Assembly: GCF_900090315.1 (NCBI RefSeq)
Contig: NZ_FMHZ01000002.1
Coordinates: forward strand, 4,558,501-4,622,500
Reading direction: 5' to 3'
DNA from: Micromonospora citrea
Lineage (GTDB): Bacteria > Actinomycetota > Actinomycetes > Mycobacteriales > Micromonosporaceae
DNA: 64,000 nucleotides
In this document: positions 48,606-54,715 of the stretch, piece after piece
Position numbering within the stretch: the first letter of the stretch is position 1
Layout of the letters: each line of letters opens with the position of its first letter
Notes under the pieces: generated by a model
Told to the model about the DNA's origin: nothing
The model's input: only the letters and a program-made list of their open reading frames with translations
Database searches by the model: none
Program-made: the position numbers and the translations under genes

Positions 48606-48745
48606 TCGCGCGTTCGGCCTGACCGCGCCGCCCGACCGCGCCGCTCCGACCGTGCCCGAGGGCTGGGTCTGGCCGCCTGATCGCGCGTTCGGCCCGGCCG
48701 CGCCGCCCCGACCGTGCCCGGAGGGCTGGGCCTGGCCGCCTGACC
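48585..48745. repeat. Tandem duplication of the 3' end of the PlsC-type gene
   Basis: An exact 35-nt copy of 48585-48619 (including stop codon TGA at 48603) lies at 48660-48694, and a degenerate third copy starts at 48723. All copies contain the CCGCCTGA stop region. The 3' flank of the gene has been duplicated two times. Confidence 0.8.
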
Positions 48746-48764
48746 CGGCGTCCGGCTGTCGCGC

Positions 48765-48794
48765 TTGCTGTATCGCGATGTATCGCGTTACTGT
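48765..48794 (+). promoter_or_regulatory. Promoter of the DUF4097-padR operon with operator repeats
   Basis: -35 TTGCTG (48765-48770), 18-nt spacer, -10 TACTGT (48789-48794). Two copies of TGTATCGCG (48769-48777 and 48779-48787) fill the spacer. TATCGCG motifs suit PadR regulators, and a PadR gene is in this operon, so this is its probable operator. Confidence 0.65.
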
Positions 48795-48843
48795 CGTGGG
48801 ACACGCCGCGCCGCCTCCGGCGCGCCGCCGGAAGGAGGGCGCC

Positions 48844-49674
48844 GTGACCGCCTGGACCGTGGCCGCCCCGCGGCGGCTCACCCTGGACGAGCCGGTCACC
48901 CGGCTCGACGTCCGACTGCTCGGCGGCAGCCTCAACGTCGTGGCCAGCGACGGCCCGGCCCGGGTCGACGTCACCCGGGTCGGACGCCGGCCGGTACTGG
49001 TGGAGCACCGCGACGGCCGGCTCTCCGTGCGCCAGGAGCGGCACCGACGGTGGTCGGAGTTCGCCTGGTGGCTGGGACCGCTGTCCCGGCTGCTCCGGGT
49101 CGACGTCTCCGTCGCGGTCCCCGCCGACGTGCTGGCCGAACTGGAGCTGGTGGACGGCTCGCTGGTCGCGTCGGGCCTGCGTGGCCGCACCAGGGTCGAG
49201 GTGAGGGCGGGCCGGATCACGCTGATGGGGCTGCGCGGCGACACCTCGGCGAAGATCACGTCGGGCCCGGTCGAGGCGCTCGGCGTGGCGGGCGACCTCG
49301 ACATGGAGACGGTCTCGGGCGAGGTGACCCTCGCCGACAGCGCGGCCGGGCAGGTGCGCGCCCGGACCGTCTCCGGCGCCATCACCTGCGACCTGGACAA
49401 CCCCCGACGCAGCGACATCCGGCTCAGCACGATCTCCGGCAGCATCACCGTCCGGGTCCGCGAGGACAGCGACCTCGCCGTCCGCCTGCACACCGCCGCG
49501 GGCCGGATCACCAGCGGCTTCGCCCAGGTGCGCGGCAGTGCCGCGCCCGGGGCCGTGGTCGACAGCGAGGGAGTGCTCGGCGCGGGCGAGGGTAGGCTCT
49601 GGGCGTCCGCCACGTCGGGCAGCATCGCGCTGCTCGCGCGCCCCGCGGGCACCGACGAGGAGGAGCTGCCGTGA
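48844..49674 (+). CDS. DUF4097-family beta-helix protein
   Basis: 276 aa. A C-terminal repeated beta-strand pattern (VRAGRITLMGLRGDTSAKITSGPVEALGVAGDLDMETVSGEVTLADSAAGQVRARTVSGAITCDL…ISGSITVRVRE) typical of DUF4097 domains, without a signal peptide or a membrane helix. Function unknown; often next to PadR genes. GTG start with GGAGG upstream. Stop overlaps the PadR start (GTGA). Confidence 0.82.
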   Translation: MTAWTVAAPRRLTLDEPVTRLDVRLLGGSLNVVASDGPARVDVTRVGRRPVLVEHRDGRLSVRQERHRRWSEFAWWLGPLSRLLRVDVSVAVPADVLAELELVDGSLVASGLRGRTRVEVRAGRITLMGLRGDTSAKITSGPVEALGVAGDLDMETVSGEVTLADSAAGQVRARTVSGAITCDLDNPRRSDIRLSTISGSITVRVREDSDLAVRLHTAAGRITSGFAQVRGSAAPGAVVDSEGVLGAGEGRLWASATSGSIALLARPAGTDEEELP

Positions 49675-50276
49675 CCGCCGTGTTCAGTCACGGGCGGCTC
49701 CGGCTCTACCTGCTCAAACTCCTCGACGACGGCCCGAAGCACGGCTACGAGCTGATCCGTCTGCTGGAGGAGCGCTTCCTCGGCCTCTACGCGCCCAGCG
49801 CCGGCACCATCTACCCCCGCCTGCAACGCCTGGAGGCCGACGGGCTCGTCGCCCACACCGCCGTCGGCGGCCGCAAGGTATACGAGATCACCGACGCCGG
49901 CCGGGCCGAGCTGCGCCACCGGGCCGGCGAGCTGACCGCCCTGGAGTCGGACATCGCGGCCTCGGTCGAGGACCTGTCCGCCCTGGCCGGGGAGATCCGG
50001 GCCGAGGTACGCGGCTCCGTCCGCGACCTGAAACGGGAGCTGCGGGAGGCGGCCCGACAGTCCCGCCAGGCCCGGTCGACGCCCTCGGCGCCCGCCCCGA
50101 CCCACCCGCCCGCGCCGCAGACGGCCCCGCTCGCCGAGTTCGACCAGCGGCTGGCCGCCTTCACCGTCGAGATGGGCGCCCTGGTACGGTCCCGCCGGCT
50201 CACCGACTCCCAGGTGCGTACGGCGATCCGGCTGCTCGACGGCGCGCTGGACGGCCTGCGCCGGCTGCTGCGCTGA
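49671..50276 (+). CDS. PadR-family transcriptional regulator
   Basis: 201 aa. Winged-helix domain: SHGRLRLYLLKLLDDGPKHGYELIRLLEERF…PSAGTIYPRLQRLEADGLVAH, then the wing GGRKVYEITDAG. A long helical C-terminus with Arg/Ala and a PAP-rich linker follows. Coupled to the DUF4097 gene; probably represses this operon through TGTATCGCG repeats in the promoter. Confidence 0.9.
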   Translation: MTAVFSHGRLRLYLLKLLDDGPKHGYELIRLLEERFLGLYAPSAGTIYPRLQRLEADGLVAHTAVGGRKVYEITDAGRAELRHRAGELTALESDIAASVEDLSALAGEIRAEVRGSVRDLKRELREAARQSRQARSTPSAPAPTHPPAPQTAPLAEFDQRLAAFTVEMGALVRSRRLTDSQVRTAIRLLDGALDGLRRLLR

Positions 50277-50326
50277 CTCCGGGCGGCGCGCCGCGCGGTG
50301 ACCGGCCCCCGCCGCCTCCACCGGCC

Positions 50327-50381
50327 TCACAGGTTTTTTTCAGCGACCGCCCAGCGCGGACGCAGCGACGGCGCGGATGAT
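50327..50381 (+). promoter_or_regulatory. Tandem PhoP-type direct repeats and -10 of the response-regulator gene
   Basis: Four 7-bp repeats on an 11-bp period: TCACAGG (50327), TTTCAGC (50338), GCCCAGC (50349), ACGCAGC (50360). The last ends 9 nt before the -10 GATGAT (50376-50381), itself 7 nt before the ATG at 50389. It resembles the PhoP box of M. tuberculosis (TCACAGC-N4). Confidence 0.75.
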
Positions 50382-50388
50382 GGGCGGC

Positions 50389-51090
50389 ATGGCCGCTACC
50401 CAGACCGAGGCGCGACTGCTCGTCGTCGAGGACGATCCCAACATCCTCGAACTGCTCTCCGCGAGCCTGCGCTTCGCGGGCTTCGACGTGGCCACCGCGA
50501 CCAGCGGCAGCGCCGCCCTGCACGCCGCCAAGGACCACCGGCCCGACCTCGTCGTGCTGGACGTGATGCTGCCCGACCTGGACGGCTTCGAGGTCATCCG
50601 GATGCTGCGCGAGGGCGGCACCCGCACCCCGGTGGTCTTCCTCACCGCCCGCGACGCCACCGACGACAAGATCCGCGGGCTGACCCTGGGCGGCGACGAC
50701 TACGTCACCAAGCCGTTCAGCCTGGAGGAGCTCACCGCCCGGATCCGGGCGGTGCTGCGCCGCACCAGCACCGGCGAGCAGGCGCCCTCCCGGCTCACCT
50801 TCGCCGACCTGGAGCTGGACGAGGAGACCCACGAGGTGCACCGGGCCGGCCAGCGGGTGCAGCTGTCGCCGACCGAGTTCAAGCTGCTGCGCTACCTGAT
50901 GCTGAACGCCAACCGGGTGCTGTCCAAGGCGCAGATCCTCGACCACGTGTGGAACTACGACTTCCGCGGCGACGACAACATCGTCGAGTCGTACATCTCC
51001 TACCTGCGCCGGAAGGTGGACAACACCCAACCCCGGCTGATCCACACCCTCCGGGGCGTGGGCTACGTGCTGCGCAAGCCGGCGGCGTGA
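50389..51090 (+). CDS. OmpR/PhoP-type response regulator
   Basis: 233 aa (two further in-frame ATGs at 50377 and 50380, but the -10 fits 50389). Receiver: LLVVEDDPNILELL (acid pair), LVVLDVMLPDLDG (phospho-Asp), DDYVTKPFSLEELTARI (Lys). The C-terminal OmpR winged helix has LSPTEFKLLRYLMLNANRVLSKAQILDHVW and NIVESYISYLRRKVDNTQPRLIHTLRGVGYVLRK. Closely resembles M. tuberculosis PhoP and TrcR in my memory. Coupled with the kinase (GTGA overlap). Probably autoregulated through the tandem repeats. Confidence 0.93.
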   Translation: MAATQTEARLLVVEDDPNILELLSASLRFAGFDVATATSGSAALHAAKDHRPDLVVLDVMLPDLDGFEVIRMLREGGTRTPVVFLTARDATDDKIRGLTLGGDDYVTKPFSLEELTARIRAVLRRTSTGEQAPSRLTFADLELDEETHEVHRAGQRVQLSPTEFKLLRYLMLNANRVLSKAQILDHVWNYDFRGDDNIVESYISYLRRKVDNTQPRLIHTLRGVGYVLRKPAA

Positions 51091-52646
51091 ACCCGGTACA
51101 CCAGGGGAAGACATGGCTGCGCGGCGTCCCGCTGCGGGTGAAGCTGGTCGCCGCGGTGCTCGCCCTGGTCGCCGCCGCCCTCCTGGTGATCAGCTCGCTG
51201 ACCACCGTCTTCCTCCGGGGCTACCTCATCGAGCAGGTGGACGAGGAACTGAGCCGCACCACCGGCTCAGTGGCCGCGGTGTTGAACCTGTACAAGGAAG
51301 GCCGGAGAGGCACCACCACGCTGCCCAGCGACTTCATCATTTCGTTGGCCCAGCCGACCGGGGTGATGTCGCCCGAGTACGACAGCCGCAACATCCGCCC
51401 GGAACAGTTGCCGCGACTACCGAGCACCACCGAGGGGTTCGCTGCGCTGGTCGGCGAGCCGCGCACCGTGACCGCGCAGGACCACAGGTCTCGCTGGCGG
51501 ATGCTCTACACCCAGTTGGACGACGGTGAGGTCCTGGCCGTCGGGCAGCACCTCACCGACGTCGACCTGGCGGTCAAGCGCCTGGTCTGGATAGACCTGC
51601 TGGTCGGCGGCGCGGTGCTGATCCTGCTCGCCTCCATCGGCGCGGCGATCGTCCGGACCAGCCTGAAACCGCTGGTGGAGATCGAGCGTACGGCCGCCGC
51701 GATCGCCGGCGGTGATCTCACCCGGCGGGTGCCCGACCCGGAGGAGGGGCAGCCCGTCCCGACCTCGGAGCTGGGCCGGCTCTCCCGGGCGTTGAACGCC
51801 ATGCTGACGCAGATCGAGGCCGCCTTCACCGCGCGCGCCGCCTCCGAGACGGCCGCCCGGGCCGCCGAGGCCGGCGCCCGGGACGCGGCCGGCGCCGCAC
51901 GCGCCTCGGAGGCGCGGGCCCGGCGCTCCGAGGAGCGGATGCGGCAGTTCGTCGCGGACGCCTCGCACGAGCTGCGGACCCCGCTGACCACCATCCGGGG
52001 CTTCGCCGAGCTGTACCGGCAGGGCGCGGCGAGCGCGCCGGAGCAGACCGCCGACCTGCTGCGCCGGATCGAGCAGGAGGCCGCCCGGATGGGCCTGCTG
52101 GTGGAGGACCTGCTGCTGCTGGCCCGCCTGGACCGGGAACGGCCGCTCTCCCTCGCCCCGGTGGAGCTGCCCGTGCTGGCCAGCGACGCGGTCGAGGCCG
52201 CCCGGGTGATGGCGCCGGAGCGCAGGGTGGAACTGGAGATCGAGCCCGGCTCCGGGCCGCTGGTGGTCTACGGCGACGACGCCCGGCTCCGCCAGGTGAT
52301 CGGCAACCTGATGACCAACGCCCTCACGCACACCCCGCCGGAGGCCTCGGTGACGCTGCGGCTGCGGGCCGAGGCGGGGAACCTCGCCGTGGCGGAGGTG
52401 GCGGACACCGGCCCCGGGCTCACCCCCGACCAGGCGGAGCGGGTCTTCGAGCGCTTCTACCGCGTCGACGCGGCGCGTACCCGGCGAGCCGGCGGAAACA
52501 CCGGCACCGGGCTCGGCCTGGCCATCGTCGCGGCACTGGTGCGGGCCCACCACGGCACCGTCGAGGTGACCGACACCCCGGGCGGAGGCTCGACCTTCCG
52601 GGTCCGGCTGCCGCTCGCGCCCGACACCGAGGGCGACGGCGAGTGA
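51087..52646 (+). CDS. Membrane sensor histidine kinase (HisKA-type)
   Basis: 519 aa. Two membrane helices bracket an external sensor domain (first LVAAVLALVAAALLVISSLTTVFL, second LVWIDLLVGGAVLILLASIGAAIVRTSL), then a HAMP domain, an Ala-rich helical linker, the H box FVADASHELRTPLTTIRGFAELYRQG and the ATPase (NLMTNALTHTPPEASV, VADTGPGLTPDQAERVFERFYRVDAARTRRAGGNTGTGLGLAIVAALV). Signal unknown. The GTG overlaps the regulator stop. The next gene, a periplasmic-type protease with its own PhoP-type repeats, suggests envelope stress. Confidence 0.94.
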   Translation: MNPVHQGKTWLRGVPLRVKLVAAVLALVAAALLVISSLTTVFLRGYLIEQVDEELSRTTGSVAAVLNLYKEGRRGTTTLPSDFIISLAQPTGVMSPEYDSRNIRPEQLPRLPSTTEGFAALVGEPRTVTAQDHRSRWRMLYTQLDDGEVLAVGQHLTDVDLAVKRLVWIDLLVGGAVLILLASIGAAIVRTSLKPLVEIERTAAAIAGGDLTRRVPDPEEGQPVPTSELGRLSRALNAMLTQIEAAFTARAASETAARAAEAGARDAAGAARASEARARRSEERMRQFVADASHELRTPLTTIRGFAELYRQGAASAPEQTADLLRRIEQEAARMGLLVEDLLLLARLDRERPLSLAPVELPVLASDAVEAARVMAPERRVELEIEPGSGPLVVYGDDARLRQVIGNLMTNALTHTPPEASVTLRLRAEAGNLAVAEVADTGPGLTPDQAERVFERFYRVDAARTRRAGGNTGTGLGLAIVAALVRAHHGTVEVTDTPGGGSTFRVRLPLAPDTEGDGE

Positions 52647-52647
52647 C

Positions 52648-52702
52648 TTTCAGCCAACATTCAGGCCGGTTCCAGGCTGGTCGCAGTGGCACGAGCGAAG
52701 CT
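52648..52702 (+). promoter_or_regulatory. Tandem PhoP-type direct repeats and -10 of the HtrA gene
   Basis: Four 7-bp repeats on an 11-bp period: TTTCAGC (52648), ATTCAGG (52659), TTCCAGG (52670), TCGCAGT (52681). The last ends 9 nt before the -10 GAAGCT (52697-52702), which is 6 nt before the ATG. Geometry identical to the repeats before the regulator gene. Confidence 0.75.
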
Positions 52703-52708
52703 GGATCC

Positions 52709-54715
52709 ATGACCGAGTACGAGTCCGACCCGCAGCGCCGGCCGGCCGCCACCGACGCCGAGCCGTCGCACCCCACCGCCGAGCTGCCCCGCGCCGAGCG
52801 CGCGCAGTCCGACTCCCCGTCGGCCGCCGACACCGTGGCCATGGAGACCGTGGCCTCCGGCCCCGGCGGTTCCGCCCCGGCGCCCGGCGAGGCGTCCCGT
52901 ACCGCCGGGCCCGGCGCGACCGCCGAGCTGCCGGCCGCCTCCGACGCGGCCCTCCGTGCCCCGGAGCCGGTTCGCGCGCCCGACGCGGCCCCTGCCGCCC
53001 CGGCCTCCGCCGGCCCGGCCCCGGCCTCCACCGGCCCGGCCCCGGCCTCCACCGGCCCGGCCCCGGCCTCCACCGGCCCGGCCCCGGCCTCCACCGGCCC
53101 GGCCCCGGCCTCCACCGGCCCGGCCCCGGCCTCCACCGGCCCGGCCCCGGCCTCCACCGGCCCGGCCCCGGCCTCCGCCGGCCCGGCCCCGGCCTCCGCC
53201 GGCCCGGCCCCGGCCTCCGCCGGCCCGGCCCCGGCCTCCGCCGGCCCGGCCCCGGCCTCCGCCGGCCCGGCCCCGGCCTCCGCCGGCCCGGCCCCGGCCT
53301 CCGCCGGCCCGGCCCCGGCCTCCGCCGGCCCGGCCCCGGCACCCGGGTCGCCGGTGCCGGGCTCCTCCGCCGCCCCGGCCGCCTGGTCCGCCCCGGCGGG
53401 CCCGTCGGCCCCGGCGGGCCCGTCCGCCCCCGCCGGCCCGTTTGCGCCGGCGGCCACCCCGTCCTATCCGGGCGGGCCCCGGCCCGCGGGGCACCCCCAG
53501 GGCCAGCCCGGCCACCCGCCGGCCGCCGCGCACCCCGGCGCGCCGTATCACGGCCAGCAGCAGTCCGGCTGGAGTGGGGGACAGCCGGGCCCGGGCTACG
53601 GCCAGCACGCGGGCCAGTACCAGCCGGGCCAGCCCTGGGCGCCCGCGCCGGCGGCCGCTCCCCGGCCGGGCCGGATCGCCAAGCTCGCCGGCGCCGGCGT
53701 CGCGGTCTTCGCCCTGATGCTCGGCTCGGGCGTGGCCGGCGGCGCGCTCGCGCTCGCCGTCGACGACGACTCCGGGATCACGCGCACCTACTCGGCGGCT
53801 CCCGTGATCAACGGCGCCGACCTGCCCCGGATCGCCGCCGCGGTCCAGCCCAGCGTGGTCTCCATCGCCACCGACAGCGGCGAGGGTTCCGGCGTGATCC
53901 TCACCGCCGACGGTTTCGTGCTCACCAACAACCACGTGGTGGCCTCCGCCGGCCGGGACAGCGTCCGGGTGGTCTTCGCCGACGGCAAGACCGCCGAGGC
54001 GCGGATCGTCGGCACGGACCCGAAGACCGACCTCGCGGTGGTGCGGGCCACCGGCGTCAGCGACCTGAAGCCGGCGACGTTCGGCGACAGCGACGGGATG
54101 CAGGTCGGCGACCAGGTGCTCGCCCTCGGCAGCCCGCTGGGCCTGCAGGGTTCGGTCACCGCCGGCATCCTCAGCGCCCGGGACCGCACCATCCAGGCCG
54201 GCAGCGGCCAGCAGCGGCAGGAGCCGGGCCAGGGCGCCAGCTCGATCGCCGGGCTGCTCCAGACCGACGCGCCGATCAACCCGGGCAACTCCGGCGGCGC
54301 CCTGGTCAACACCCGCGGCGAGGTGATCGGCATCAACACCGCGATCGCCACCGCCGGTCAGGGCAGCACCGGCAACATCGGCGTCGGGTTCGCGATCCCC
54401 AGCAACAAGGCCAAGGACGTCGCCGGCAAGCTCCAGCGCGGCGAGAAGGTGAGCCACCCGTCGCTCGGGGTCAGCGTGACGGCCGCCGAGGGCGGCGGGG
54501 CCCTGGTCGCCGCCGTCACCTCCGGCAGCGCCGCCGAGAAGGCCGGGCTCCAGCGCGGCGACGTGATCACCCGGTTCGGCGACAAGGTGGTCAACGACTC
54601 CGACGACCTGGTCGGCGCGGTGCAGGCCGGCAAGGTCGGCGACCGGGTCGAGGTGACCTACAAGCGCAACGGCGCCGAGTCCAGGGCAACCGTGACGCTC
54701 GCCGAGACGTCGTAA
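52709..54715 (+). CDS. HtrA/DegP-type membrane serine protease with long low-complexity N-terminus
   Basis: 668 aa. The cytoplasmic N-terminus (about 320 residues) is Ala/Pro-rich, including 16 near-identical GPAPAS(T/A) units and a Pro/Gly/Gln/Tyr stretch. One helix follows (LAGAGVAVFALMLGSGVAGGALALAV). The trypsin-like domain has the triad H409 (LTNNHVV), D441 (KTDLAVV) and S528 (NPGNSGGAL). A C-terminal PDZ domain (HPSLGVSVTAAEGGGALVAAVTSGSAAEKAGLQRGDVITRF) completes a DegP-like protease. It should sit in the membrane with the protease outside. Regulation by the adjacent PhoP-like system is inferred from the repeats. Confidence 0.92.
   Translation: MTEYESDPQRRPAATDAEPSHPTAELPRAERAQSDSPSAADTVAMETVASGPGGSAPAPGEASRTAGPGATAELPAASDAALRAPEPVRAPDAAPAAPASAGPAPASTGPAPASTGPAPASTGPAPASTGPAPASTGPAPASTGPAPASTGPAPASAGPAPASAGPAPASAGPAPASAGPAPASAGPAPASAGPAPASAGPAPASAGPAPAPGSPVPGSSAAPAAWSAPAGPSAPAGPSAPAGPFAPAATPSYPGGPRPAGHPQGQPGHPPAAAHPGAPYHGQQQSGWSGGQPGPGYGQHAGQYQPGQPWAPAPAAAPRPGRIAKLAGAGVAVFALMLGSGVAGGALALAVDDDSGITRTYSAAPVINGADLPRIAAAVQPSVVSIATDSGEGSGVILTADGFVLTNNHVVASAGRDSVRVVFADGKTAEARIVGTDPKTDLAVVRATGVSDLKPATFGDSDGMQVGDQVLALGSPLGLQGSVTAGILSARDRTIQAGSGQQRQEPGQGASSIAGLLQTDAPINPGNSGGALVNTRGEVIGINTAIATAGQGSTGNIGVGFAIPSNKAKDVAGKLQRGEKVSHPSLGVSVTAAEGGGALVAAVTSGSAAEKAGLQRGDVITRFGDKVVNDSDDLVGAVQAGKVGDRVEVTYKRNGAESRATVTLAETS
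53001..53340 (+). repeat. 21-bp coding minisatellite in the HtrA gene
   Basis: Sixteen tandem 21-bp units encode GPAPAS plus T or A. The variant codon comes in blocks: A (first unit), then T in seven units, then A in eight. The otherwise near-identical nucleotide sequence points to recent expansion or gene conversion. Confidence 0.95.

Follow-up and report, generated by a model that had tools for sequence, protein, structure and literature searches.

What controls an HtrA-family protease gene that lies directly behind a two-component system in Micromonospora citrea, and does the response regulator of that system act both on its own operon and on the protease? The question is raised by a stretch of 64,000 nucleotides (nt) of contig NZ_FMHZ01000002.1 (assembly GCF_900090315.1, positions 4,558,501 to 4,622,500; hereafter the window, in whose numbering positions are given), where genes for a PhoP-like regulator, a sensor kinase and HtrA follow one another and where two arrays of four 7-bp repeats at an 11-bp period precede the regulator gene and htrA. 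Judging from the sequence, we propose with a probability of about 0.8 that both arrays are operators of the regulator encoded at 50389-51090, a head-to-tail stack of the phosphorylated protein over the -35 position activating both htrA and the regulator's own operon from leaderless promoters. The features concerned are the following.

50327..50366, + strand: predicted four-repeat PhoP-type operator of the regulator gene, TCACAGG-N4-TTTCAGC-N4-GCCCAGC-N4-ACGCAGC, 11-bp period (repeats starting at 50327, 50338, 50349 and 50360)
50376..50381, + strand: predicted -10 hexamer GATGAT of the regulator promoter, 9 nt past the array and 7 nt ahead of ATG 50389
50389..51090, + strand: PhoP-like OmpR-family response regulator of 233 amino acids (aa), leaderless-type start at ATG 50389
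51087..52646, + strand: sensor histidine kinase (HAMP, HisKA and HATPase_c domains), probable start at a GTG overlapping the regulator stop codon
52648..52687, + strand: predicted four-repeat PhoP-type operator of htrA, TTTCAGC-N4-ATTCAGG-N4-TTCCAGG-N4-TCGCAGT, 11-bp period (repeats starting at 52648, 52659, 52670 and 52681)
52697..52702, + strand: predicted -10 hexamer GAAGCT of the htrA promoter, 9 nt past the array and 6 nt ahead of ATG 52709
52709..54715, + strand: HtrA-family serine protease (Trypsin_2 and PDZ domains), its long N-terminal part of low complexity, leaderless-type start at ATG 52709

Two promoters with the same architecture

The arrays stand exactly where the original prediction, made from the sequence alone, had placed them. 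CAG occupies bases 4 to 6 in all eight repeats, and both arrays end 9 nt before a NANNNT hexamer (50376 and 52697) that is followed by a start codon 6 to 7 nt further on, as had also been predicted. The htrA array begins 1 base past the kinase stop codon, and the 62-nt gap between the kinase gene and htrA is filled by the operator, the -10 and their spacers. At both promoters the predicted -10 lies at the distance from the start codon that is expected of leaderless promoters, and the predicted operators, lying over the -35 position at a fixed distance from the -10, suggest a class II layout of the PhoB type.

Rarity of the pattern

Searching the genome for four-repeat arrays ending 9 nt before a -10, as had been proposed along with the prediction, returned three exact matches to the pattern (CAG-N8)x3-CAG-N11-A-N3-T in 7.2 Mb, two of them being the window arrays, against none for the same pattern reversed, which served as control; with at most one mismatch there were seven matches against none. 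Dinucleotide shuffling of the two upstream regions (50277-50392 and 52621-52712) did not recreate the array in any of 20,000 trials for either region, which bears out the claim that the shared spacing lies beyond chance. In a sample of the family the exact pattern was present in 106 of 121 genomes (reversed control, 6 of 121), and in a sample of the phylum in 38 of 396 (control, 9 of 396). Chance repeats are thus ruled out by the genome controls, the family sample, the shuffles and the regions behind the kinase stop codon described below.

The third exact match of the genome (L003, C2:6053172) overlaps long unrelated frames and has no start codon 6 to 7 nt past the -10. Among the matches with at most one mismatch, L058 and L060 lack a properly spaced start codon, and L059 opens a frame of 33 aa; we claim none of them as a target, and searches with two mismatches and an ATG in seven genomes yielded no further secure target in the M. 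citrea genome. Two shorter arrays may be recorded here: three TGTCAG repeats at an 11-bp period with a -10, an ATG and an 11-aa frame at position 331 of L212 (same genome, C2:170930), and three TGTCAG repeats at the same period with a -10 and an ATG before an ATP-binding cassette (ABC) transporter ATPase gene at position 317 of L215, from a relative.

Conservation at the regulator gene

Orthologous upstream regions, whose comparison the original prediction had called for, carry the arrays at both genes across the family, and not the loss of the repeats that would speak against an operator. The sample comprised 42 loci, namely the window and the best regulator match from one genome per genus in 41 genera outside its own genus; 2 of 50 genomes had no regulator match at E <= 1e-70, and L187 was short. 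Within 150 nt before the regulator gene, at least three CAGs in 11-bp phase were found in 39 of the 42 loci (shuffle mean 0.18, maximum 2), all four repeats being CAG in 24. At least three CAGs together with a NANNNT exactly 9 nt past repeat 4 were present in 30 loci (shuffle mean 0.01), and in 29 the NANNNT at 9 nt was accompanied by a properly spaced start codon. The distances between CAGs in these regions peak at 11, 22 and 33 nt, with 102, 66 and 31 occurrences against about 3 expected for each, no other distance from 4 to 45 nt occurring more than 6 times; CTG, taken as a control, gave 6, 2 and 3 at the same three distances.

Conservation downstream of the kinase gene

With the best array taken at any position past the regulator gene, at least three CAGs, a -10 and a start codon with a frame longer than 60 aa were found in 29 of the 42 loci, and all four CAGs in 13; for most of these frames, though not for every one, similarity was used to check that they encode HtrA. 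A first spacing test on 34 regions centred on the best array leaned towards the result and was replaced by a stricter one, with lower counts, on 220-nt regions placed by the kinase stop codon alone and blind to the motif. The stop codon was found in 41 of the 42 loci, L198 having no complete kinase frame. At least three in-phase CAGs occurred in 20 of these 41 regions (shuffle mean 0.34, maximum 3), and 18 also had the -10 at 9 nt (shuffle mean 0.02, maximum 1). Here too the CAG distances peak at 11, 22 and 33 nt (59, 35 and 20 occurrences against about 5 expected; next highest, 15). L001-L057 contain 60 distinct exact arrays, and in 55 of them the -10 is followed by an ATG after 6 or 7 nt (28 and 27, respectively).

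The htrA array might be read instead as coding sequence, translation starting from GTG 52643, in frame and overlapping the kinase stop codon, with the repeats encoding N-terminal residues. We give this reading almost no credence and have set it aside: across genera the distance from array to -10 stays at 9 nt while that from -10 to ATG shifts by a base or two, and the conserved peptides (MTE, MNE, MSE and the like) start at the htrA ATG. From sequence comparison, the site as an operator on the HtrA side appears well supported only within the family to which the window belongs.

Kinship of the regulator and its DNA-contact residues

The regulator consists of Response_reg and Trans_reg_C domains, and its closest solved relative is PhoP of Mycobacterium tuberculosis (structures 9ji3 and 3r0j rank first, E about 1e-97); it fell under the curated cut-off of every one of the 25 NCBIfam families listed. 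That OmpR/PhoP proteins bind repeats of this period, with a TCACAGC-N4 box, as the original prediction stated, is published for M. tuberculosis PhoP: excerpts of PMC4832192 describe a tandem dimer on 7-bp direct repeats of TCACAGC separated by 4 bp, a strict need for the 4-bp spacer, and tighter binding of sequences with three or four motifs. They list N212, V213, E215, S216, Y217 and Y220 as base contacts, place R237 in the minor groove and assign L113 and Y205 to the tandem interface. With PhoP numbers that we transferred from the alignment, the window regulator is identical to PhoP at D71, L113, Y205, N212, E215, S216, Y217, Y220, R222, R223 and R237 and has I for V213, so that five of the six base-contact residues are kept.

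In a quick tree of 100 of the 143 rows, with Shimodaira-Hasegawa approximate likelihood-ratio test (SH-aLRT) support only, some long branches and no row chosen as MprA, the window clade and the mycobacterial and nocardial PhoP proteins form one 37-row fork (SH-aLRT 91, unstarred; 34 of these rows at 81). The regulator groups with mycobacterial PhoP in this tree, and not with the clade of its own paralogue, a separate one of 37 rows (SH-aLRT 100, starred). Residues were counted in 22, 11 and 21 chosen rows. Position 216 is S in all 22 rows of the window clade and position 113 is L in 19 of the 22; in the paralogue clade all 21 chosen rows have L at position 216 and either A or V at position 113.

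The paralogue itself (L005, C2:6740013) belongs to a 62% identical PhoP-type system that carries its own array of four repeats, CAG in three and CAA in one, ahead of a start of leaderless type. Three relatives (L213, L214 and L222) have an array before the regulator gene of the paralogous system and a weaker one before a PMT-type gene, unlike the M. citrea stretch behind the paralogous kinase (L211), in which no array was found; a PMT-type target of the paralogous system was set aside for this genome.

Proposed mechanism and its alternatives

We propose that the kinase phosphorylates the regulator and that four copies then bind head-to-tail, one for each 7-bp subsite, the 11-bp period of about one helical turn placing all subunits on one face of the DNA. 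If the start point is the A of the ATG, the array would span about -62 to -22 and the -10 about -13 to -7, the last subunit ending 9 nt short of it. Because the array occupies the -35 position and ends 9 nt before the -10, RNA polymerase would be recruited by the bound regulator in place of a -35 contact, in the PhoB-type class II manner, which would involve contact with sigma region 4, the mRNA beginning at or beside the ATG and hence leaderless. Positive feedback would raise the regulator and the kinase, and the second promoter, in the gap between kinase gene and htrA, would raise the envelope protease HtrA, possibly in answer to secretion or envelope stress. Since the arrays are conserved at both genes and the closest solved relative, PhoP, binds such repeats, autoregulation together with direct control of the adjacent protease, as originally suggested, appears to be the best reading of the sequence.

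Several observations weigh against this proposal. At the promoters, the -10 hexamers are weak, and a scan for sigma-70-type consensus found no -35/-10 pair in the region, a weak test given that only 0.1 was expected by chance in such G+C-rich DNA. Repeats 3 and 4 drift from TCACAGC and are less strict than repeat 1; on the htrA side, AAG frequently replaces CAG in repeat 4. In the family sample, 3 of the 42 loci have no regulator array (L199, L206 and L207, at 67 to 77% identity), and no array with a -10 within 200 nt was found in 23 of the 41 regions behind the kinase gene. Among the named actinobacterial loci described below, the strict geometry is missing at 35 of 78 regulator genes and at the htrA gene in three of the four with HtrA downstream, the one that has it being Micromonospora, and in the mycobacterium-like loci L216 and L217 phoP has three CAG repeats and no NANNNT at 9 nt. 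The contact residues vary within the window clade as well, N212 being G in 6 of the 22 rows and Y220 being V in 2. Lastly, the repeats of M. tuberculosis phoP are reported downstream of the start site in excerpts of PMC3413638, and the geometry of autoregulation is not uniform.

That location and the fact that activation is argued from geometry alone would also suit a regulator that binds both arrays as a repressor, its subunits over the -35 blocking RNA polymerase until a signal alters its state. PhoP-family regulators are able both to activate and to repress. We nevertheless consider repression improbable here: the promoters look activator-dependent, in that no -35 consensus was found in the weak test above, and the distance from array to -10 is fixed, at 9 nt in 36 of 43 matches in named loci where 8 to 10 nt were allowed, which fits contact with the polymerase better than simple blocking. 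Binding chiefly by another OmpR-family regulator such as the 62% identical paralogue (contig 2, 6,740,013), or by both proteins in cross-regulation, would be in line with the paralogue's own four-repeat array before a leaderless-type start and with the fact that the two have most PhoP DNA-contact residues in common. Yet the arrays stand at the window regulator's own operon across genera, and the differences of the paralogue clade at positions 216 and 113 suggest insulation, which makes this quite improbable too. Activation by the window regulator at both promoters is the reading that we retain.

The same layout in other actinobacteria

A matrix trained on the arrays of the family was run on 80 named actinobacterial loci, of which 78 could be tested (L134 and L160 had no upstream sequence). 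The full geometry was found at the regulator start in 43 of the 78, the gap between array and -10 being 9 nt in 36, 10 nt in 4 and 8 nt in 3, and the antisense strand, taken as background, gave 3 matches in 601 kb. The sense strand away from the regulator start gave 18 distinct matches. Of these, 11 fall at the start of a gene that lies downstream of the regulator and encodes a glycosyltransferase relative or one of the PMT type, in genera including Williamsia, Mycobacterium, Streptomyces, Cellulomonas, Amycolatopsis and Nocardia, and 1 belongs to htrA of Micromonospora. No such explanation applies to the remaining six (L092, L093, L104, L107, L135 and L160); the match in L104 leads into a second frame that resembles a response regulator, and the htrA ATG of L092 comes 39 nt after the -10.

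An HtrA, GT2 or PMT relative lies downstream on the same strand within 5.5 kb in 17 named loci, and 12 of these have a strict array at that gene, namely 11 of 13 for GT2 or PMT genes and 1 of 4 for HtrA; L095, L139, L153 and L155 have none there. Pfam domains in examples are Glycos_transf_2 with GtrA_DPMS_TM (L077, L146 and L218), PMT_2 with YkcB_C (L213) and Rieske (L221). In L216 and L218, whose PhoP groups with Mycobacterium and Gordonia, an array stands before the glycosyltransferase gene, as it does in L217, where the frame has only 35 aa; in L077, which comes from the genome that also yielded L216, the kinase and glycosyltransferase genes are separated by a gene in the opposite orientation.

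We lean, by little more than an even chance, towards the view that this promoter grammar (four 7-bp subsites at an 11-bp period, 9 nt, the -10, 6 to 7 nt and the ATG) is an ancient trait of PhoP-family modules in the Actinomycetota. The genes marked by a module would be that of its own regulator and an envelope gene downstream of the kinase, the latter having been exchanged between lineages (HtrA, a GtrA-domain glycosyltransferase or a PMT/YkcB-type mannosyltransferase, with a Rieske-domain target elsewhere), and coexisting paralogues would be insulated by changes at PhoP positions 113, in the dimer interface, and 216, in the recognition helix.

Two further occurrences of such arrays were seen. 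In another genus of the family (L208 and L221) a four-repeat array stands ahead of a gene whose product has a Rieske [2Fe-2S] domain, and the stretch gave no match to the regulator. A 20-kb stretch from another family of the phylum (L210, genome G294) holds five exact four-repeat arrays of the TTCAG/CTCAG type at an 11-bp period and one with three CAGs, which adjoin a two-component system (regulator 44% identical) and have no start codons at the expected distance; this cluster is probably a different system, perhaps under another regulator of like kind.

Comparison with known systems

M. tuberculosis PhoP resembles the window regulator in family, DNA-contact residues, repeat length and period, published binding to three and four repeats, and sites overlapping the -35, with the repeats DR1 and DR2 over the -35 at lipF and pks2, where class II was suggested (excerpts of PMC4832192, PMC3413638 and PMC4038636). 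In contrast to what these describe, the window has four repeats abutting a leaderless-type -10, both at the regulator gene and at the gene behind the kinase. Its target there is HtrA, unlike the glycosyltransferase downstream of the pair in the Mycobacterium and Gordonia grouping (L216 and L218). The head-to-tail sites that stand in for the -35 at PhoB class II promoters of Escherichia coli offer another parallel (excerpts of PMC3413638), although regulator and signal are others and the repeats number two there and four in the window.

By gene layout, the pair resembles systems in which a two-component system adjoins an HtrA-like protease gene, as it does here; in M. tuberculosis, MprAB-PepD has an HtrA-like protease gene after the kinase. 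The Streptomyces CssRS pair (SCO4156-4155) adjoins htrB (SCO4157) and controls HtrA-like proteases under secretion stress; the terms "motif" and "direct repeat" do not occur in the main text of PMC3498368. Streptomyces CutRS likewise controls htrA genes; according to excerpts of PMC12802291, however, its CutR motif is TAWATAAA, which differs from the window repeats and led us to reject a CutR-type site, and the cutRS promoter itself was unbound in a surface plasmon resonance assay.

In the surroundings of the locus, the stretch immediately upstream of the regulator (48652-50276) holds a DUF4097/LiaG-like gene and a PadR-family regulator gene, which hint further at an envelope-stress context. 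The low-complexity N-terminus of HtrA contains a 21-bp coding minisatellite (52997-53340; 16.4 copies, 99% matches) that encodes repeats of the form APAS(T/A)GP.

Binding of PhoP to repeats of 11-bp period, tetra-repeats included (PMC4832192), and control of an adjacent HtrA-like gene by CssRS (PMC3498368) are, from excerpts of these papers, already published. What appears to be new is the conserved layout of four repeats, 9 nt and a leaderless-type promoter at both the regulator gene and the gene behind the kinase, across genera and with exchanged targets; among the open-access papers listed, none described such an operator in its title or abstract opening, and none was found on a two-component system and HtrA in Micromonospora.

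If our proposal is true, the sequence alone would reveal direct targets of PhoP-family regulators in many actinobacteria, with false matches being few to judge by the antisense background, and the promoter pair would provide a defined test bed for a four-subunit response-regulator stack activating a leaderless promoter. Positions 113 and 216 would then offer residue-level hypotheses on how coexisting paralogues avoid cross-talk, and in soil bacteria that make antibiotics, PhoP-type systems would be tied to the quality control of envelope proteins.

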